The notes below the pieces were generated by a model. It saw only the letters and a program-made list of their open reading frames with translations. It was not told where the DNA came from and did no database searches. Source: a virus. From it: a stretch of DNA of 21,568 bases. The translations under genes and the position numbers were made by a program. Shown piece after piece: positions 8,853 through 21,026 of this stretch (positions within the stretch are counted from its first letter, which is position 1; each line of letters begins with the position of its first letter). The stretch is taken from IMG/VR virus record IMGVR_UViG_3300021437_000096, positions 1 through 21,568 of that record. One strand, written 5' to 3'.

Positions 8853-10019
8853 ATGAATGGAATTTCATTTTATCTGAAGGACAAAAAGAATCCGACATCA
8901 ATACGGATGCGAATATATATCAGGGGCAAGGCACATCATTACCCGACATTTGTTTCAATCAATCCGACCCATTGGTGCACAGAAAAAGGAGTATTGTTTC
9001 AGCGTTCATTGACCGGCAAAATGTTTCCCTGGGGTTACAATATCAACATGAAGCTGAACCGAATTGAAAGTGCTGCTGAACGGGTGCGGTCAAAGATGGA
9101 TGAAGGCTTTACCTATGCAGAATTTAAAGAGGCATTGGACATCGAATTGCAGCGCAAAAAGAAATCAATACAGGATTTTTGGGCCTATGTGCATGGCTTC
9201 ATTGACAATGTGGTAAAGACAAGGCCGGAACTGAAGGCTGGCAGGAATAGCATTTTAAACAGTTACAATCAGACCATTGATTTACTTCATGCCTTTGAGT
9301 CCAAATTCGGACGGCTTGAGTTTGAAAGGTTCGATGCTGATTTTTATAAGCGGTTCCTGAATTATTGCCACAGCGTAAAGGGGTTCAAGCCAAACACAAC
9401 CGGAAGGCATGTCAAAACTTTGAAAACCTGGTTGAATGCAGCAACGGCTGAAGGGGTAAATACATCATTGAAATACAAGGGATTCAAGGTACTCAGGGAA
9501 AGGACGGCTGAAATTTATTTGTTGCCACAGGAAATCCGGCAAATTGCCGAATCAGCGTTGCACCCAATCACAAGGGATATTTTCATTTTTGCATGTTGGA
9601 CTGGACTCAGGTATGTTGATTATGTGCAGGTAACAGCAGCAAACATTCGGGACGGCTCGTTGATGTTTTACCAGTCAAAGACCGGCAATCCGGTTGTTAT
9701 TCCACTTCGTCCTGAGTGCATGGAGATTTTAAGCCGTTATGGCGGTCAATTGCCAAAGGTGCCACACAATCAGGTGATGAACCGTTATTTGAAAGAAATT
9801 GCACATGCAATCGGTATGCCTTCAACAAGGGCATCAAAACTGAAAACGCATACTGCAAGGCGTTCCTTTGCGACAAACCTTTTTTTATCCGGTTTCCCTG
9901 CACATGACATCATGAGAATCACGGGCCATAAAACCGAAAAATCATTTTTGCTTTACATCCGGCATGACAATCAGGACAGTGCCGACCGGCTAAGAAAGCA
10001 TTGGGGACTATCTGAATAG
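8853..10019 (+). CDS. int: Tyrosine recombinase / phage integrase
   Basis: A 388-residue integrase that inserts and excises the element by strand exchange at attP/attB. The N terminus (SFYLKDKKNPTSIRMRIYIRGK) is the arm-type DNA-binding domain common in Bacteroidota integrases. Residues about 115-210 form the helical core-binding domain. The catalytic domain shows Arg253 in WTGLRYVDY, a Lys in QSKTGNPVVIPL, His333-x-x-Arg336 in HTARRSF, His359 in ITGHK and the nucleophile Tyr368 in LLYIRH, so all active-site residues are present. It begins 167 bases before no other gene and 1 base after the third GTACCCCT repeat. It converges with the repressor gene, the two stops overlapping by 12 bases. No TAnnTTTG promoter is seen upstream. 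Confidence 0.92.
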   Translation: MNGISFYLKDKKNPTSIRMRIYIRGKAHHYPTFVSINPTHWCTEKGVLFQRSLTGKMFPWGYNINMKLNRIESAAERVRSKMDEGFTYAEFKEALDIELQRKKKSIQDFWAYVHGFIDNVVKTRPELKAGRNSILNSYNQTIDLLHAFESKFGRLEFERFDADFYKRFLNYCHSVKGFKPNTTGRHVKTLKTWLNAATAEGVNTSLKYKGFKVLRERTAEIYLLPQEIRQIAESALHPITRDIFIFACWTGLRYVDYVQVTAANIRDGSLMFYQSKTGNPVVIPLRPECMEILSRYGGQLPKVPHNQVMNRYLKEIAHAIGMPSTRASKLKTHTARRSFATNLFLSGFPAHDIMRITGHKTEKSFLLYIRHDNQDSADRLRKHWGLSE

Positions 10020-10868
10020 GTACTTTGAATAATTGCGGTTTGTGTCGTGTTTCTGCACGAAATACCAAACCTCAAGGCAGTCCTTCAGGCTGATTTCGAA
10101 GTCTTCGTAATAGTCATTGATTGACCTGAGTGTGAGAATGTCGTCATGCTGACTCTTGACAAGTTTGATTAGCAGTCCCTTTTCATTGTGCAGGATCACA
10201 AAGATGTGACCTGGGTGAAACTTTTTCCAATGCACGGGGTCAAGGCTTTTGGCATCAACCAGGCAACCGGATGGAAATTCAGGTTCCATTGAATCTCCTT
10301 TTACTTCGAACGTCCGGTATTTACCGGATTCATCAACGTAGATAATGTGTTCAGGCAAGTTCATAATATAGTTGTTATCGTTGTGGCCCTGTAAATAACC
10401 TGCATACGATTGAGCATGAACTATACGGGAACGGGTAAACTTGTTTTCATCTAAATCAGGCAGGGCTACAACGTTAGAAACATTTGCATTTTTGTCTGTC
10501 ACGAAAATGTCAATTCCTATTTGCTTGAACCTTTCTTTGAATCGCGATGAAATTACGGCCCTGTTGAACATATTGGTAATGTTTTGGGCATCAATGTTGA
10601 GTTTTTTGGCAATATCCGTGTTTGATATACCTCTTTCCCTGAGATATTGTTTCAGCATATTACCTTCACCGGTCAATATAGGTTCCTCTGCCTGGATAGG
10701 TACGCCCATTTCTTTGAGCATCCAACGCCGTTCTGTTGGAAGCGTTTCACAGTTCATCCAATAGACGACAGTATTGCGGTAAACCCCGCAAGCCTTGCCG
10801 AATTCTGCAATGTTTCGATAATGCTTATTGACCCACTCTTTAAGCAATTCTCCTTCATGTATAGCCAT
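10008..10868 (-). CDS. S24-family CI-like repressor with two HTH segments
   Basis: A 286-residue LexA/CI-type repressor. There are two DNA-binding-like segments: residues about 8-50 (NIAEFGKACGVYRNTVVYWMN) and about 71-105 (ISNTDIAKKLNIDAQNITNMF). The C-terminal S24 peptidase-like domain has Ser193 in VKGDSMEP and Lys235 in GLLIKLVKS as the catalytic dyad. An Ala156-Gly157 bond in SYAGYL sits where such repressors self-cleave. RecA-stimulated cleavage would thus induce the prophage. The gene is leftward, divergent from the small regulators at 10945, and overlaps the integrase 3' end by 12 bases. The antirepressor at 20190 is a likely antagonist. Tandem HTH segments in one repressor chain are less usual. 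Confidence 0.88.
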   Translation of the reverse strand: MAIHEGELLKEWVNKHYRNIAEFGKACGVYRNTVVYWMNCETLPTERRWMLKEMGVPIQAEEPILTGEGNMLKQYLRERGISNTDIAKKLNIDAQNITNMFNRAVISSRFKERFKQIGIDIFVTDKNANVSNVVALPDLDENKFTRSRIVHAQSYAGYLQGHNDNNYIMNLPEHIIYVDESGKYRTFEVKGDSMEPEFPSGCLVDAKSLDPVHWKKFHPGHIFVILHNEKGLLIKLVKSQHDDILTLRSINDYYEDFEISLKDCLEVWYFVQKHDTNRNYSKYLFR

Positions 10869-11403: not shown

Positions 11404-11428
11404 AATATTTTGGTTTGACATCAGCATG

Positions 11429-11459
11429 ATCCGGTTTGAGAAATCAGGCCGGATTTTTT
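11429..11459 (+). terminator. Strong rho-independent terminator
   Basis: ATCCGGTTTGA (11429-11439) pairs with TCAGGCCGGAT (11444-11454), 11 bp with two G-U pairs closed by a GAAA loop, followed by T6. It ends the two-gene regulator operon. Confidence 0.85.
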
Positions 11460-11472
11460 ATTTAAACTTTTA

Positions 11473-11504
11473 TTTGTTTTATATTTATTTTTGTTATATC
11501 TTTG
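11473..11504 (+). promoter_or_regulatory. Early promoter for the replication region
   Basis: TTTG (11473-11476), exactly 20 bases, TATCTTTG (11497-11504): a full consensus match. The ATG at 11519 lies 14 bases past the -7 element. Confidence 0.85.
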
Positions 11505-11518
11505 CTTCATTAAACATT

Positions 11519-12154
11519 ATGGCAATAAACGCAACAAACACAGCGCAAGTTAAGGAATTGATACCCGCTGGCAACTATGTAGCACGATGCTACCAAATGA
11601 TTCAAATTGGCACCGTTGATGAATTGGTCAACGGCGAAAAAAAGACCATGCACAAGTGTCGCATTGGCTGGGAGCTTCCAACGGAGCAAAAGGTTTTCAA
11701 AGAGGAAAACGGATTGCAGCCCTTGGTAATTTCAAAAGAATTTACCTTATCAATGCACGAGAAATCAAACCTGAGAAAAGTTTTGGCATCATGGCGCGGC
11801 AAGGATTTCAGCGAAGAGGAAGCAAAAAGTTTCGACATCACAAAATTATTGGGTGCTCCCTGCATGTTGAACATTATTCACAAGCCTTCCAAAGACGGCA
11901 GCAAAATTTATCAGGAAATTGGCAGCATTTCTCCTATACCAAAGGGTTTTGAAGTCCCTGCACAAATCACCCCTTCAATGGTGCTCGAATATGACGATTT
12001 TGATACCGCTGTTTTTGAACGTTTGCCGGATTTTATTAAGGATAAAATCAAAAGCAGTGCTGAGTTCAAAAAAATGCTGGCACCGCAAGAGTCAATTCTT
12101 GACGACAAGTTTGATTTTCCTGAAGCAACCCCAAACGCTGATTTACCATTTTGA
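11519..12154 (+). CDS. NGO0469-like phage replication protein
   Basis: A 211-residue protein starting at ATG 11519, fixed by the promoter; the frame further upstream runs through the promoter. It has the recognisable order of the NGO0469/phage replication-initiation-associated family: LIPAGNYVARCYQMIQIGT, HKCRIGWELP, ISKEFTLSMHEKSNLRKVL.SWRGK, ITKLLGAPCMLNIIHK, then a P(I/K)GFEVPAQ stretch and a C-terminal acidic tail ending in PNADLPF. The beta-rich core and the acidic tail with final hydrophobic residues suggest a single-strand DNA-binding role, as in SSB. It starts the early replication operon. Confidence 0.7.
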   Translation: MAINATNTAQVKELIPAGNYVARCYQMIQIGTVDELVNGEKKTMHKCRIGWELPTEQKVFKEENGLQPLVISKEFTLSMHEKSNLRKVLASWRGKDFSEEEAKSFDITKLLGAPCMLNIIHKPSKDGSKIYQEIGSISPIPKGFEVPAQITPSMVLEYDDFDTAVFERLPDFIKDKIKSSAEFKKMLAPQESILDDKFDFPEATPNADLPF

Positions 12155-12432: not shown

Positions 12433-12464
12433 TTTGCTTTTTATATATTTTTTATATAAGTTTG
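12433..12464 (+). promoter_or_regulatory. Promoter of the structured replication leader
   Basis: TTTG (12433-12436), exactly 20 bases, TAAGTTTG (12457-12464). Predicted transcription start is near 12468, at the first base or two of the 5' arm of the leader's long inverted repeat. Confidence 0.8.
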
Positions 12465-12466
12465 CC

Positions 12467-12575
12467 ACAGCCAAAGCATCGAATGAATTATTCAACAAAA
12501 GAAAATATTACAAGGGGCGTTTGCGGCGTTTCGCTGCACGGTGCTTTGGCTGTCATCGTAGCCCCTTGTTTTTTT
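12467..12575 (+). ncRNA. Structured leader RNA with interleaved stems and terminator
   Basis: A 15-bp inverted repeat, ACAGCCAAAGCATCG (12467-12481) with 12539-12553, contains one G-U and is otherwise perfect. It interleaves with CAAGGGGC (12511-12518) and GCCCCTTG (12561-12568), the latter followed by T7. Between them is a small hairpin GCGGCG-TTT-CGCTGC (12523-12537). The order A, B, hairpin, A', B' means the two long stems cross: they form a pseudoknot or compete. B:B' with T7 is a terminator, so the leader can end as an RNA of about 105 bases before the replication gene at 12589. This suggests RNA control of replication or an independent small RNA. Confidence 0.7.
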
Positions 12576-12588
12576 AATACAGTCAATT

Positions 12589-13302
12589 ATGCCAAAAAGA
12601 TTTATTGATACAGGGTTTTTTAAATCACCCTTTGTAAGGGGCTTGGAAGGGTCATTAAAGAGCCTTTATACCTTCATTATTTGCGATTGTGAAGCCTCTG
12701 GAATTTGGGTCAAGGACTTAGATGTTGCGACAGTTTATACTGGATTTAAATTTACTGATGAACAATTTCATAAACATTTTGTTGAAACCGGAAAAGCAGT
12801 CGATTTGGGCAATGGTAAATATTTTTTTCCTGATTTTATTGAACATCAATATCCAAAAGGGCTTTCTGAAAAAAACATTGCACACAATAATATTATTCCT
12901 ATCTTATTAAGTCTTAATCTTTTAGATGAATCATTAAAGCCCCTTAAACGACCCTTTGAAGGGTCTAAGGTAATGGTAAAGGTAAAAGAAGAGGTAAAGG
13001 AAATGGTAAAAGAGCCAAAAATTAAAAAAATTGATTTTGAATTGTTTTATGATCCTTATCCAAGAAAACAAGCAAAAATTGACGGCCAAAAGGCTTGGAA
13101 TAAACTTACTGAAGACGAAAAGAAATTAGCTATTGATTGTTTGCCAAAATTTATTGCGGCAACAGATCCAAAATATTACCCATTACCAGCAACATTTTTA
13201 AATGGTAAACGCTGGCTTGATGAATTTAAACCGAAAAAACCGGAATTCAAATCAGAAAACACAAAAAAATTAACAATCGAATATGGAACAACTCATTTTT
13301 GA
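12589..13302 (+). CDS. Phage replication initiation-type protein
   Basis: A 237-residue protein behind the structured leader. The N-terminal part (RFIDTGFFKSPFVRGLEGSLKSLYTFIICDCEASGIW) is a winged-helix-like domain of phage replication proteins of the DnaD/O class. A Lys/Val/Glu linker (KVKEEVKEMVKEP) is encoded by GGTAAA-type near-repeats around 12970-13010. The C-terminal part (YPRKQAKIDGQKAWNKL...KYYPLPATFLNGKRWLDE) is a motif common in phage replication proteins. It probably binds the origin and hands over to the loader encoded next (20-base overlap). Its DNA is visibly richer in A+T than its neighbours, with A/T-ending codons, suggesting separate acquisition. Confidence 0.65.
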   Translation: MPKRFIDTGFFKSPFVRGLEGSLKSLYTFIICDCEASGIWVKDLDVATVYTGFKFTDEQFHKHFVETGKAVDLGNGKYFFPDFIEHQYPKGLSEKNIAHNNIIPILLSLNLLDESLKPLKRPFEGSKVMVKVKEEVKEMVKEPKIKKIDFELFYDPYPRKQAKIDGQKAWNKLTEDEKKLAIDCLPKFIAATDPKYYPLPATFLNGKRWLDEFKPKKPEFKSENTKKLTIEYGTTHF

Positions 13303-13870
13303 CGCGATACTGAAAAAAATTCAGCAAGAGCCGAAACCACAACCCCGCCCGAAAACGGACATAAAACAAATTGTTGACTTGGCTGCCAATGCTGCAATAA
13401 ACAAAGGTTTGATTTGGGAGCATGGTGAATTAGAGGCCGCTGCAATGGATGCTATTTTTAATTGTCCAGGGGCACTGCTAATGGGAAAAAAAGGAACAGG
13501 GAAAACGCTGTGCTTAGAACTTGCTGCAAAGATTTGGGGTTATTACCGTGGCAAATACGGATTCATTTCAACAGAAAAGTTGAGCCTCAAATATTCACAG
13601 ATTGGCAGTGAGGCAATTTTGAACCTTGACAGAATCCCTTTGTTTTTGGATGACTTAGGCATTGAGGAACCTTCGTACAATAGCTACGGCAATAAAATTG
13701 ACGCTATTTCAACACTGCTGTTGATGCGATACGAAAACAAGGCACCGACATTTTGCACCACGAATTTAAATATTGAACAACTCACTGAACGCTATGGAGA
13801 CAGGCTGTCCGATCGGTTTAAGCAAATGTTCAAAATTGTACTGTTTACGGGAGAATCAAAACGAAAATAA
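13283..13870 (+). CDS. DnaC-like AAA+ helicase loader
   Basis: A 195-residue ATPase. Walker A is G68-K-K-G-T-G-K-T75, Walker B is IPLFLDDLG (Asp123, Asp124), sensor-like residues lie in CTTNLN, and the arginine-finger segment is RYGDRLSDRF. These are the marks of DnaC/IstB-type loaders, which place the host replicative helicase on DNA. The N-terminal 30 residues are Pro/Lys-rich and may contact the helicase. It overlaps the preceding initiator gene by 20 bases and is followed after 7 bases by a DnaA-domain gene, together forming an origin-melting and helicase-loading set. No phage helicase or polymerase is visible, so host enzymes are likely recruited. Confidence 0.8.
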   Translation: MEQLIFDAILKKIQQEPKPQPRPKTDIKQIVDLAANAAINKGLIWEHGELEAAAMDAIFNCPGALLMGKKGTGKTLCLELAAKIWGYYRGKYGFISTEKLSLKYSQIGSEAILNLDRIPLFLDDLGIEEPSYNSYGNKIDAISTLLLMRYENKAPTFCTTNLNIEQLTERYGDRLSDRFKQMFKIVLFTGESKRK

Positions 13871-13877
13871 ATAAATT

Positions 13878-14231
13878 ATGAGATACGAAATAGAAAAAAT
13901 TAGCACCACAATTGCCAAAGAATTAGGCATTGAGTTAGAAGCACTAAAAACAAAATCACGTAAACAGGAATTAAAAGAGGCGCGCCATTGGTGCATGTAT
14001 TTTTGCTGTATTGAAAGGGCCGGCACTTTAAACGAAATTGGTTTATTCTTTGGCGGGCGTGACCATTCAACCGTTATCAATGCAAGGCGCACCATTCAAG
14101 ACCATATCCAAGTCGAAAGGCAATCGAAGCGAATTTTTGAACGGTTAAAAATATGTTTAGACCCTGTGTTAAACACAAATAACATTGACCCCGTATCAAT
14201 GGCAATGTTGAGCATGGCAAGTTTTGCATGA
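13878..14231 (+). CDS. Stand-alone DnaA domain IV-like protein
   Basis: A 117-residue protein carrying the DnaA C-terminal DNA-binding signature: TLNEIGLFFGGRDHSTVINARRTI, with GRDHSTV as the DnaA-box recognition helix. The preceding helices (IAKELGIELEALKTKSRKQELKEARHWCMYF) fit domain IV. There is no ATPase domain, and about 35 residues after the motif are unique. Such proteins could bind DnaA-box-like sites in the phage origin or compete with host DnaA. It sits directly after the DnaC-like loader and overlaps the next gene by ATGA. Confidence 0.75.
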   Translation: MRYEIEKISTTIAKELGIELEALKTKSRKQELKEARHWCMYFCCIERAGTLNEIGLFFGGRDHSTVINARRTIQDHIQVERQSKRIFERLKICLDPVLNTNNIDPVSMAMLSMASFA

Positions 14232-14452
14232 AACATGATAACCCCAATGCAGAAAGAATTGATAAGCGAACATTGTCATACACAATTGGGGGCGCTTATC
14301 GCTATCATGGAGGCAATAGAGAATTCATACTTCAGGAAGTGATACACGAAGGGACGGTTTTTCGGTTTGAGTGTGGCCATTGGTGCACCGACAATGTTTT
14401 TGTTGACCTTATTCAAATCAATCATAAATCAAAACAGCTTGAATTATTTTGA
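14228..14452 (+). CDS. Hypothetical early protein
   Basis: A 74-residue protein, starting in an ATGA overlap with the DnaA-like gene and ending in a TTGA overlap with the nuclease gene. It looks beta-rich (TLSYTIGGAYRYHGG, VIHEGTVFRFECGHWCTDN) with a Cys-x-x-x-Cys that could bind metal, and ends KSKQLELF. The last residues (QLELF) resemble a clamp-binding motif (QLxLF), which would let it dock on the beta sliding clamp; this is an inference from five residues. Function unknown. Confidence 0.55.
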   Translation: MKHDNPNAERIDKRTLSYTIGGAYRYHGGNREFILQEVIHEGTVFRFECGHWCTDNVFVDLIQINHKSKQLELF

Positions 14453-19825: not shown

Positions 19826-19858
19826 TTTGCATATCTCGTTCCTGTGGATTTACCTTTG
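19826..19858 (+). promoter_or_regulatory. Promoter of the antirepressor leader
   Basis: TTTG (19826-19829), 21 bases, TACCTTTG (19851-19858). Predicted start is about 19862-19864, exactly at the 5' arm A1 of the leader RNA. Confidence 0.8.
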
Positions 19859-19862
19859 TGAT

Positions 19863-19998
19863 GCTGAAATACCAATGTTGGTCAACAACCATAAATCTTT
19901 AATTAAATCCTCGGAAGCGGGTAGGAGCAATCCCCCGAAAATGCCTTCATTGGTGTTTCAGCCTTCCGAGGATTTGTATGTTTATGCTGAAACACCAA
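19863..19998 (+). ncRNA. C4-like antisense/leader RNA of the antirepressor operon
   Basis: Segments in order: A1 GCTGAAATACCAA (19863-19875); B AAATCCTCGGAAG (19905-19917); a hairpin CGGG/CCCG + GGA/TCC with GCAA loop (19918-19937); A' TTGGTGTTTCAGC (19950-19962); B' CTTCCGAGGATTT (19963-19975); A2 GCTGAAACACCAA (19986-19998). B:B' is a perfect 13-bp complement, A':A2 is perfect, and A1:A' has one G-U. B' contains the Shine-Dalgarno GAGGA (19968-19972) and A2 begins at the G of ATG 19984. Segments A1+B (about 75 bases) could act as an antisense RNA on the A'-B' target. This is the logic of P1/P7 c4-icd-ant; homology to the C4 family is inferred. Confidence 0.7.
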
Positions 19999-20193
19999 TC
20001 AACAACAGGTGCCGGTTTAGGAATTGAACCGGTAGTAATTATCAAGGTTAGCTTGCCTTCCACCAAAAAGCCCAATCACAAAGCTGCCACTCAGCTTGTT
20101 TTTAACACTTACCTTATCGAGCACGAAGACCCAATCGAATCAGAGGCGGTACTTGCTGCATTCAATCACTTACTGGAGGGAGGTACAATATGA
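19978..20193 (+). CDS. Small leader ORF coupled to the antirepressor (Icd-position)
   Basis: A 71-residue protein from ATG 19978, five bases after GAGGA; ATG 19984 in frame is a second possible start. Sequence: beta-type (EPVVIIKVSLPSTKKPNHKAATQLVFNTYL) then an acidic helix (DPIESEAVLAAFNHLLEG). No family recognised. Its ribosome site lies in B' and its first codons in A2 of the leader, so folding or antisense pairing would block it. It ends in ATGA with the antirepressor start, so blocking it would also lower antirepressor translation, as with icd in P1. Any cell-division effect is not implied. Confidence 0.6.
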   Translation: MFMLKHQSTTGAGLGIEPVVIIKVSLPSTKKPNHKAATQLVFNTYLIEHEDPIESEAVLAAFNHLLEGGTI

Positions 20194-20939
20194 AACAACT
20201 CATTCCAATAATGGAAAAGGGCAACACCCGTGCTGTCAATGCGCGTGACCTTCACATTTTCTTGGCCCCAAAATCCAGGTTCGATACATGGATTGTCAGA
20301 ATGCTTGAGTATGGCTTTGTCGAGAATCAGGACTTCTGCACAATTTTGGGCGAAAGTAATGGAGGCCGCAGACCAAAGGATTTTGCATTGACTTTGGATT
20401 GTGCCAAAGAAATAGCAATGCTTCAAAGGACGGACAAAGGCAAACAAGCCCGACAGTATTTTATTGAATGCGAAAAAGCGATGAAGCAAGTACAGCCATT
20501 AACAGAAGACCAATTGTTGGCACAGGCAATGAATGTTTTGAACCGCCGTTTGGAAGCATCAAACGAAAAGGCCGTCCTGCTCGAAGCAGAAATCAAAAAG
20601 CAAGCCCCGAAAGTTCAGTACGCAGAGGAAGTGCTATTGTCTGAATCGTGCTTTACCACAACAACAATTGCCAAAGAAATTGGCATGTATGCAGCAGACC
20701 TGAACAAGTTTTTACAATGGATGCGGGTTCAGTTCAAACATGAAGACCATTGGGTATTGTATCAGAACCACAACAACAAAGGACTGACAAAAACACGAAC
20801 CCACACTTACACCGACAGCGAAGGCCGGAGCAAAACATCAATTCAAATGGTTTGGACTGAACGTGGCCGTGCCTGGATTCATAAACTGTGGCGCGATGAA
20901 GCCGGAGGCTGGTTGAACAGAAAGAATAAATCTGCTTAA
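20190..20939 (+). CDS. ant: AntA/AntB-KilAC antirepressor
   Basis: A 249-residue protein with an N-terminal AntA/AntB domain. Visible are NARDLHIFLAPKSRFDTWIVRMLEYGFVENQDF, RRPKDFALTLDCAKEIAMLQRTDKGKQARQYFIECEK. A coiled linker (MNVLNRRLEASNEKAVLLEAEIKKQAPK) is followed by a C-terminal KilAC DNA-binding domain (CFTTTTIAKEIGMYAADLNKFLQWM, WTERGRAWIHKLW). Such antirepressors bind and inactivate phage repressors to trigger lytic growth. It has its own GGAGGGAGG site at 20175-20183 but overlaps the preceding ORF by ATGA, so translation is probably coupled. A terminator follows at 20997. The family is the same as P1's AntA/B. Confidence 0.9.
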   Translation: MKQLIPIMEKGNTRAVNARDLHIFLAPKSRFDTWIVRMLEYGFVENQDFCTILGESNGGRRPKDFALTLDCAKEIAMLQRTDKGKQARQYFIECEKAMKQVQPLTEDQLLAQAMNVLNRRLEASNEKAVLLEAEIKKQAPKVQYAEEVLLSESCFTTTTIAKEIGMYAADLNKFLQWMRVQFKHEDHWVLYQNHNNKGLTKTRTHTYTDSEGRSKTSIQMVWTERGRAWIHKLWRDEAGGWLNRKNKSA

Positions 20940-20948: not shown

Positions 20949-21011
20949 ATGCACCCGCGATTTGCATGGATATTTGACCTGATTCGATGGATTTTTAAAA
21001 GGCGTTGGTAA
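20949..21011 (+). CDS. Possible 20-residue amphipathic peptide
   Basis: ATG 20949 to TAA 21011. It starts MHPRFAWIFD, has three tryptophans and three phenylalanines, and ends in a basic run (FKRRW): a hydrophobic/cationic amphipathic peptide. It lies between a promoter (20913-20944) and a terminator whose stem contains the stop codon, making a transcription unit of about 80 bases. Type I toxins and some phage inhibitors look like this, but a chance frame in the antirepressor 3' region is equally possible. Confidence 0.3.
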   Translation: MHPRFAWIFDLIRWIFKRRW

Positions 21012-21026
21012 TTCAGCGCCTTTTTT
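20997..21026. terminator. Bidirectional rho-independent terminator
   Basis: AAAAGGCGTTG (20997-21007) pairs with CAGCGCCTTTT (21014-21024), 11 bp with one T-G pair and a 6-base loop, followed by T residues. The A4/T4 flanks allow function in both directions, between the converging antirepressor and lipoprotein genes; the lipoprotein stop overlaps its edge. Confidence 0.8.

Follow-up and report, generated by a model that had tools for sequence, protein, structure and literature searches.

A probable C4-type antisense control element in the leader of an antirepressor operon of a Bacteroidota phage

The antirepressor operon and its leader

The window analysed here, a stretch of 21,568 nt of viral DNA (IMG/VR record IMGVR_UViG_3300021437_000096), carries close to its 3′ end an antirepressor gene (ant), which is preceded by a promoter sequence, a leader with mutually complementary segments and a small open reading frame (ORF):

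19826–19858, plus strand: Bacteroidota-type promoter from the pattern scan; TTTG (19826–19829), 21-base spacer, TACCTTTG (19851–19858)
19863–19877, plus strand: A1, upstream target copy (a1-like) at the expected 5′ end of the transcript; pairs with A′, covaries in relatives
19904–19976, plus strand: candidate c4-like antisense RNA (closing stem B:B′, GNRA-capped hairpin, A′), from the c4-2 alignment, the fold and the P1 c4 plan
19904–19917, plus strand: B, 5′ arm of the closing stem; computed helix, closing stem covaries in relatives
19918–19937, plus strand: hairpin 1 with a GGA-GCAA-TCC core; RNA fold and c4-2 alignment
19948–19962, plus strand: A′, antisense stretch; pairs with both A1 and A2
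19963–19976, plus strand: B′, 3′ arm of the closing stem; computed helix
19986–19999, plus strand: A2, target over the start of the small ORF; perfect 14 bp with A′, at the ATG in relatives
19984–20193 (69 aa) or 19978–20193 (71 aa), plus strand: small leader ORF in icd-like position; ORF reading
20190–20939, plus strand: ant, antirepressor with AntA (PF08346) and KilAC (PF03374) domains; ATGA overlap with the small ORF
20997–21024, plus strand: intrinsic-terminator-like hairpin after ant; terminator scan

The product of ant scored above cut-off against both PF08346 (88.4 bits, E = 4.9e-25) and PF03374 (100.1 bits, E = 1.1e-28) and is closest to antirepressors of Riemerella phages, with 52% identity. 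By analogy with the AntA/KilAC family it would antagonise the phage repressor; an S24-peptidase repressor candidate lies in the window at 10008–10868. No homologue of the small ORF was found, and P1 Icd gave no alignment with it. An earlier note, made from the sequence alone, had described an ORF of 71 residues starting at A2 and coupled through ATGA to the gene of an AntA/KilAC antirepressor. The position of A2 and the coupling stand, but in relatives A2 and the ORF start together, and by this register the ATG at 19984 (69 aa) is a better candidate for the start than the one at 19978 (71 aa). From their arrangement, leader, ORF and ant are likely to share one transcript. The Shine–Dalgarno sequence placed in B′ by the same note is present as GAGG, but is weak evidence, since Bacteroidota make little use of Shine–Dalgarno sequences.

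A promoter firing straight into the leader had also been proposed, and TTTG-N21-TAccTTTG is indeed found, ending four bases before A1. Six matches to this consensus were obtained in the window by the pattern scan against 1.25 expected, two of which directly precede the two modules described here. Another exact TTTG-N-TAnnTTTG match, at 11473–11504, is located within the first codons of ORF 11426–12154, suggesting that the true start of this ORF is the internal MAINATNTAQ.

Helix computation on the leader confirmed the three helices of the earlier note, with revised lengths: A1:A′ comprises 15 bp including one G–U (19863–19877 with 19948–19962), B:B′ 14 bp, 13 of them Watson–Crick (19904–19917 with 19963–19976), and A′:A2 14 perfect bp (19949–19962 with 19986–19999). 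The segments follow each other in the order A1-B-hairpin-A′-B′-A2. As A1, B, A′ and B′ thereby cross, A1:A′ and B:B′ cannot both form in a simple nested fold. In the order scan the leader scored 100.5, compared to 71 for the best of 3000 dinucleotide-preserving shuffles, of which only 20 gave any score. The pairing is thus real and far above chance. When up to one mismatch is allowed, three copies of the A core are all that the window contains. A minus-strand match of the scan at the leader is the mirror image of the symmetric pattern and nothing more, and a candidate module at 14199–14398 (score 64.5) was dropped, its arms being overlapping and badly placed. We additionally observed that A1 has an ATG of its own, the start region of the ORF being duplicated there; the frame it opens, within 19861–19902, runs for 13 codons to a stop just before B and is not kept in all relatives.

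Order scan and feature scan revealed a second module of the same design in the window, with different letters (A1 ACAGCCAAAGCATCG):

12433–12464, plus strand: second-module promoter, TTTG-N20-TAAGTTTG; pattern scan
12467–12586, plus strand: second c4-like module
12467–12481, plus strand: A1 of the second module
12510–12518, plus strand: B of the second module
12539–12553, plus strand: A′ of the second module
12561–12569, plus strand: B′ of the second module
12579–12586, plus strand: A2 of the second module
12589–13302, plus strand: replication-initiation-like gene (phrog_9327, phrog_270)

Here, B′ runs directly into T7, and A2 comprises 8 bp with one G–U, just before the replication-initiation-like gene. 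Relatives of this gene in two further sequences (L272, L273) likewise have upstream modules.

Related modules and their covariation

The module design was followed through 9358 windows of DNA by a feature scan that also rewarded a TAnnTTTG promoter, an ATG at A2 and a U-run following B′. The leader studied here scored 122.5, the modules of Riemerella phages and R. columbina 112–109, a metagenomic virus (L145) 104 and the second module of the window 100, compared to a maximum of 82 among 4679 shuffled windows; some non-module matches in repetitive DNA reached 80–97, without the promoter and ATG features. Modules recur before the antirepressors of Riemerella phages and R. columbina, and in further viruses too. 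The Riemerella phages RAP44 and CRP6 display the same order before their antirepressors in unrelated letters, and RAP44 contains two modules (13723–13896 and 30395–30556) with different A letters, each preceding a small ORF and an antirepressor, so that the second module comes with a second antirepressor. In L145 (1568–3112), a single module and an HNH-like ORF precede two tandem ant genes. The modules of the window, of Weeksellaceae, of L145 and of two further sequences (L124, L035) all have A2 starting right at the start codon of their first ORF.

Searches of viral contigs for close relatives of the leader (as DNA), the 71-aa ORF or ant found none, and neither of two close contigs obtained by a terminase search had an ant or leader match. 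A Riemerella-type covariance model reached 13.1 bits on the window (E = 0.1), which is not significant, and gave nothing significant across 296 Bacteroidota genomes. The plan is consequently common to these leaders while sequence homology is not shown, and homology of the window leader to any single known c4 family is likewise not proven. For the window leader itself, the case is built on a structure improbable in its own right, the position upstream of ant, the c4-2 alignment given below and the shared plan.

Covariation among homologous leaders had been suggested by the earlier note as a check, and it is present, in three ways, in the Riemerella-type relatives. The alignment comprised 12 distinct leaders, which share the plan of the window leader and are not aligned copies of it. 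Among them, A1:A′ and A′:A2 were paired in 132 of 132 cells for each helix, and in both helices 8 of 11 pairs had changed on both sides, without G–U intermediates. The covariation score of 0.683 compares to 0.14 in shuffles and to about 0.10 at most when the segments were slid, and nine A letter sets could be distinguished. The c4 fold of the relatives was 98.5% paired with two-sided changes at 14 of 24 pairs; within it, the closing stem was 100% paired (8 of 11 pairs changed on both sides) and hairpin 1 showed such changes at 5 of 8 pairs. The first codons of the leader ORF vary together with A′, while the residues that follow (ETTAPTANNSSEVQ in RAP44) are nearly fixed. Taken together, paired cells, two-sided changes and codons tracking the A letters reflect selection on RNA pairing. 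With relatives keeping the pairing while the letters change, the leader is almost certainly a working lysogeny switch. By computed energies, in which accessibility and proteins are ignored, the cognate c4:target duplex was the strongest in 10 of 12 modules.

The three occurrences of the 14-base word, which include both orientations, could also be DNA operators of a phage regulator, the P1 operon likewise having a repressor operator, or inverted repeats for DNA inversion. This is very improbable, however. In RAP44, as in the first module of the window, the A word occurs exactly three times per module, with no further copies in the window or in RAP44, which counts against operators; A2 moreover falls within the ORF, at its start codon, and the covariation of B:B′ and hairpin 1 is that of RNA stems, often with a U-run at their end.

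The candidate antisense RNA and its proposed action

The segment 19904–19976 folds at −33.2 kcal/mol. From B to B′ it is built of a closing stem, a GNRA-type hairpin, a weak hairpin 2 and A′ placed against the 3′ arm; as in C4, a closing stem with internal hairpins and an unpaired antisense stretch is present, with hairpin 2 being weak. The Rfam family c4-2 aligns over its full model length to 19907–19975 with 30.2 bits (E = 0.0012, computed against all 4227 Rfam families), which is below its curated gathering cut-off of 41 bits. The match to Rfam C4 that the earlier note had suggested looking for did not appear, as RF01695 gave no covariance-model match in the region. C4 RNA is processed by RNase P at a GG start to about 77 nt; inspection of 19900–19985 revealed neither the GG start nor the CCACC end that serve as RNase P signals in P1 c4. 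The sRNA-Xcc1 family (RF02221) gave no covariance-model match in the window. Matches to STnc40, mir and riboswitch families in the Rfam search were below cut-off and were judged to be chance.

From the comparison with P1 c4 and the span of the c4-2 alignment, the antisense RNA is placed at B-hairpin-A′-B′, with A2 and A1 as its targets. The earlier note had instead taken A1+B (about 75 bases) as the antisense RNA and A′-B′ as the target. Both segments are indeed complementary to the adjacent A′-B′, but 27 bases part A1 from B here and up to 93 do so in relatives, both the Rfam match and the conserved fold of c4 run from B to B′, and the start codon sits in A2 rather than in A′-B′. This assignment is hardly credible, and we abandon it. 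The core of the earlier note, a C4-icd-ant-like antisense switch on the antirepressor of a Bacteroidota phage, is upheld by the P1 layout, the c4-2 alignment and the three-way covariation of the related modules.

We propose a model in which the leader is very probably a C4-type antisense control element of the small ORF and the antirepressor. One promoter would give a transcript carrying A1, the c4-like RNA, A2 at the ORF start, the ORF and the coupled antirepressor. The c4-like RNA would be cut out of or released from this transcript, displaying A′ beside its closing stem, and A′ would pair with A2 of other transcript copies and cover the start codon, so that the small ORF and with it the coupled antirepressor would be stopped. 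In a lysogen, the antirepressor would be kept off, and superinfecting phages that share the A letters would have their antirepressor messages blocked. Within one transcript, A1 and A2 would compete for A′, which may protect a newly made message from silencing by its own c4 segment. We infer the production of the RNA, its action in trans, repression and immunity from this architecture. For this leader, the energies computed for the two folds, c4 and A1:A′, with accessibility and proteins ignored, lie close together (−43.0 and −42.2 kcal/mol, a difference of less than 1 kcal/mol), and such energies would fit the c4 mechanism.

The near-equality of the two folds can also be read as transcriptional attenuation in cis, in which B:B′ with a U-run is an intrinsic terminator hindered by the earlier-forming A1:A′ helix, and the leader sets read-through into the ORF and ant, while the terminated RNA may double as a c4-like antisense RNA. 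A1 always lies at the promoter, and B′ runs into T's in most Bacteroidota modules (TTTTTT in RAP44, R. columbina, L145, T7 in the second module of the window). The U-run of the first module is weak, however (TTTGTATGTT), the terminator scan does not list its B:B′, and A′:A2 is conserved equally strictly although attenuation does not need it. We therefore consider attenuation a possible but rather unlikely main mode of action; given the U-run after B′ in most relatives, it could act as a second layer.

Likewise, all three segments lie on one transcript and pair as would be required if A′ masked A2 of its own transcript unless A1 took A′, that is, in a purely cis translational switch with no free RNA. 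Such a switch does not need the self-contained c4 fold, whose closing stem and hairpin 1 covary separately, and computed cis A′:A2 pairing was near zero in nearly all leaders. P1 c4, for its part, acts in trans after processing (PMC5320573, citing Citron and Schuster). Consequently, a cis switch is clearly improbable compared to the trans-acting element proposed here.

Going further, with more doubt than conviction, the modules could represent a general, re-codable c4 cassette of Bacteroidota phages, two per phage, and not a single antirepressor switch; the same scaffold with other letters would control antirepressors and replication initiators. Its closing stem would also serve as terminator and A′ both as antisense stretch and as antiterminator partner of A1, while the letters would diversify and set immunity groups. 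Lysogeny control in Bacteroidota phages is poorly understood. The proposed trans-acting element predicts that phages with matching A letters are mutually immune at the antirepressor step and others are not, which the nine Riemerella-type letter sets make directly testable. Matched cassettes might also be of use as orthogonal RNA regulators.

Comparison with known c4-class systems

The closest parallel in layout is the C4 system of P1/P7 (RF01695, with c4-a1b1, RF03163), which shares with the window the order of target copy, c4, target, small ORF and ant behind one promoter, and the ATGA overlap. The P1 record gives a1, b1, c4 RNA, a2, b2, icd and ant1, with an icd of 73 aa that overlaps ant1 by ATGA, and P1 scored 68.8 against RF01695. 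The P1 c4 fold consists of a long closing stem, a tetraloop hairpin and a hairpin 2 with b′ in its loop, with a′ directly before the 3′ arm; closing stem, hairpin 1 and an antisense stretch before the 3′ stem arm are found in the window as well. RNase P cuts P1 c4, which binds via a′ and b′ and occludes the ribosome-binding site, and a four-base difference separates P1 from P7 (PMC5320573); c4, icd and ant form one operon, and full repression of ant requires c4 (PMC8198154). While P1 uses two short, separate patches (a′, b′) at the ribosome-binding region, the window leader has contiguous 14–15 bases at the start codon. Unlike P1, it is also without RNase P signals (by inspection) and without an RF01695 match, and its small ORF is not homologous to icd.

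The c4-2 family (RF02944), which belongs to the Rfam clan of C4, scored above cut-off in 7 of 296 Bacteroidota genomes, with as many as six copies in one genome, and in none of 249 Pseudomonadota genomes; classical C4 was found in none of 247 Bacteroidota genomes, with five matches in the Yersinia check genome. The earlier note, which knew of no described Bacteroidota case, has to be corrected here, as c4-2 already lives in Bacteroidota, before other genes. It resembles the window in its host group, its TAnnTTTG-type promoter before the target copy and its a1b1-c4-a2b2-ATG plan, and at its loci the hairpin-2 loop and both targets change together. In contrast, the fixed TCCTAA/TAGGA element of c4-2 is missing from the window, and the c4-2 loci examined precede a small gene of undescribed function instead of an antirepressor. 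In such sequences (L172–L191), c4-2 sits between two target copies, the second at the ATG of this conserved small gene (MSTNTLSKE...), and where a genome has multiple c4-2 copies (up to six), they differ in their hairpin-2 loops.

In Bartonella, sRNA-Xcc1 (RF02221) lies before ant genes in A1-B-A′-B′-A2 order, with A letters that change at all three sites; its sequence is unrelated to the window, and its A2 is upstream of the start codon. The ant leaders of several Bartonella loci match it (L014, L044, L134, L159, L018), with A1/A′/A2 letters changing together in about five sets. sRNA-Xcc1 may belong to the c4 class, which is not stated in the Rfam clan assignment. To our knowledge, sar of P22 has no upstream target copy and does not lie within one c4-ORF-ant transcript. 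It shares with the proposed element an antisense RNA acting against an antirepressor, which sar restrains in P22 (PMC12197685).

With c4-class RNAs of Bacteroidota already in Rfam, the novelty of the window leader is that of a variant, with a single uninterrupted antisense stretch directed at the start codon. It would extend the c4 principle of P1/P7 from Proteobacteria to the antirepressor operons of Bacteroidota phages.
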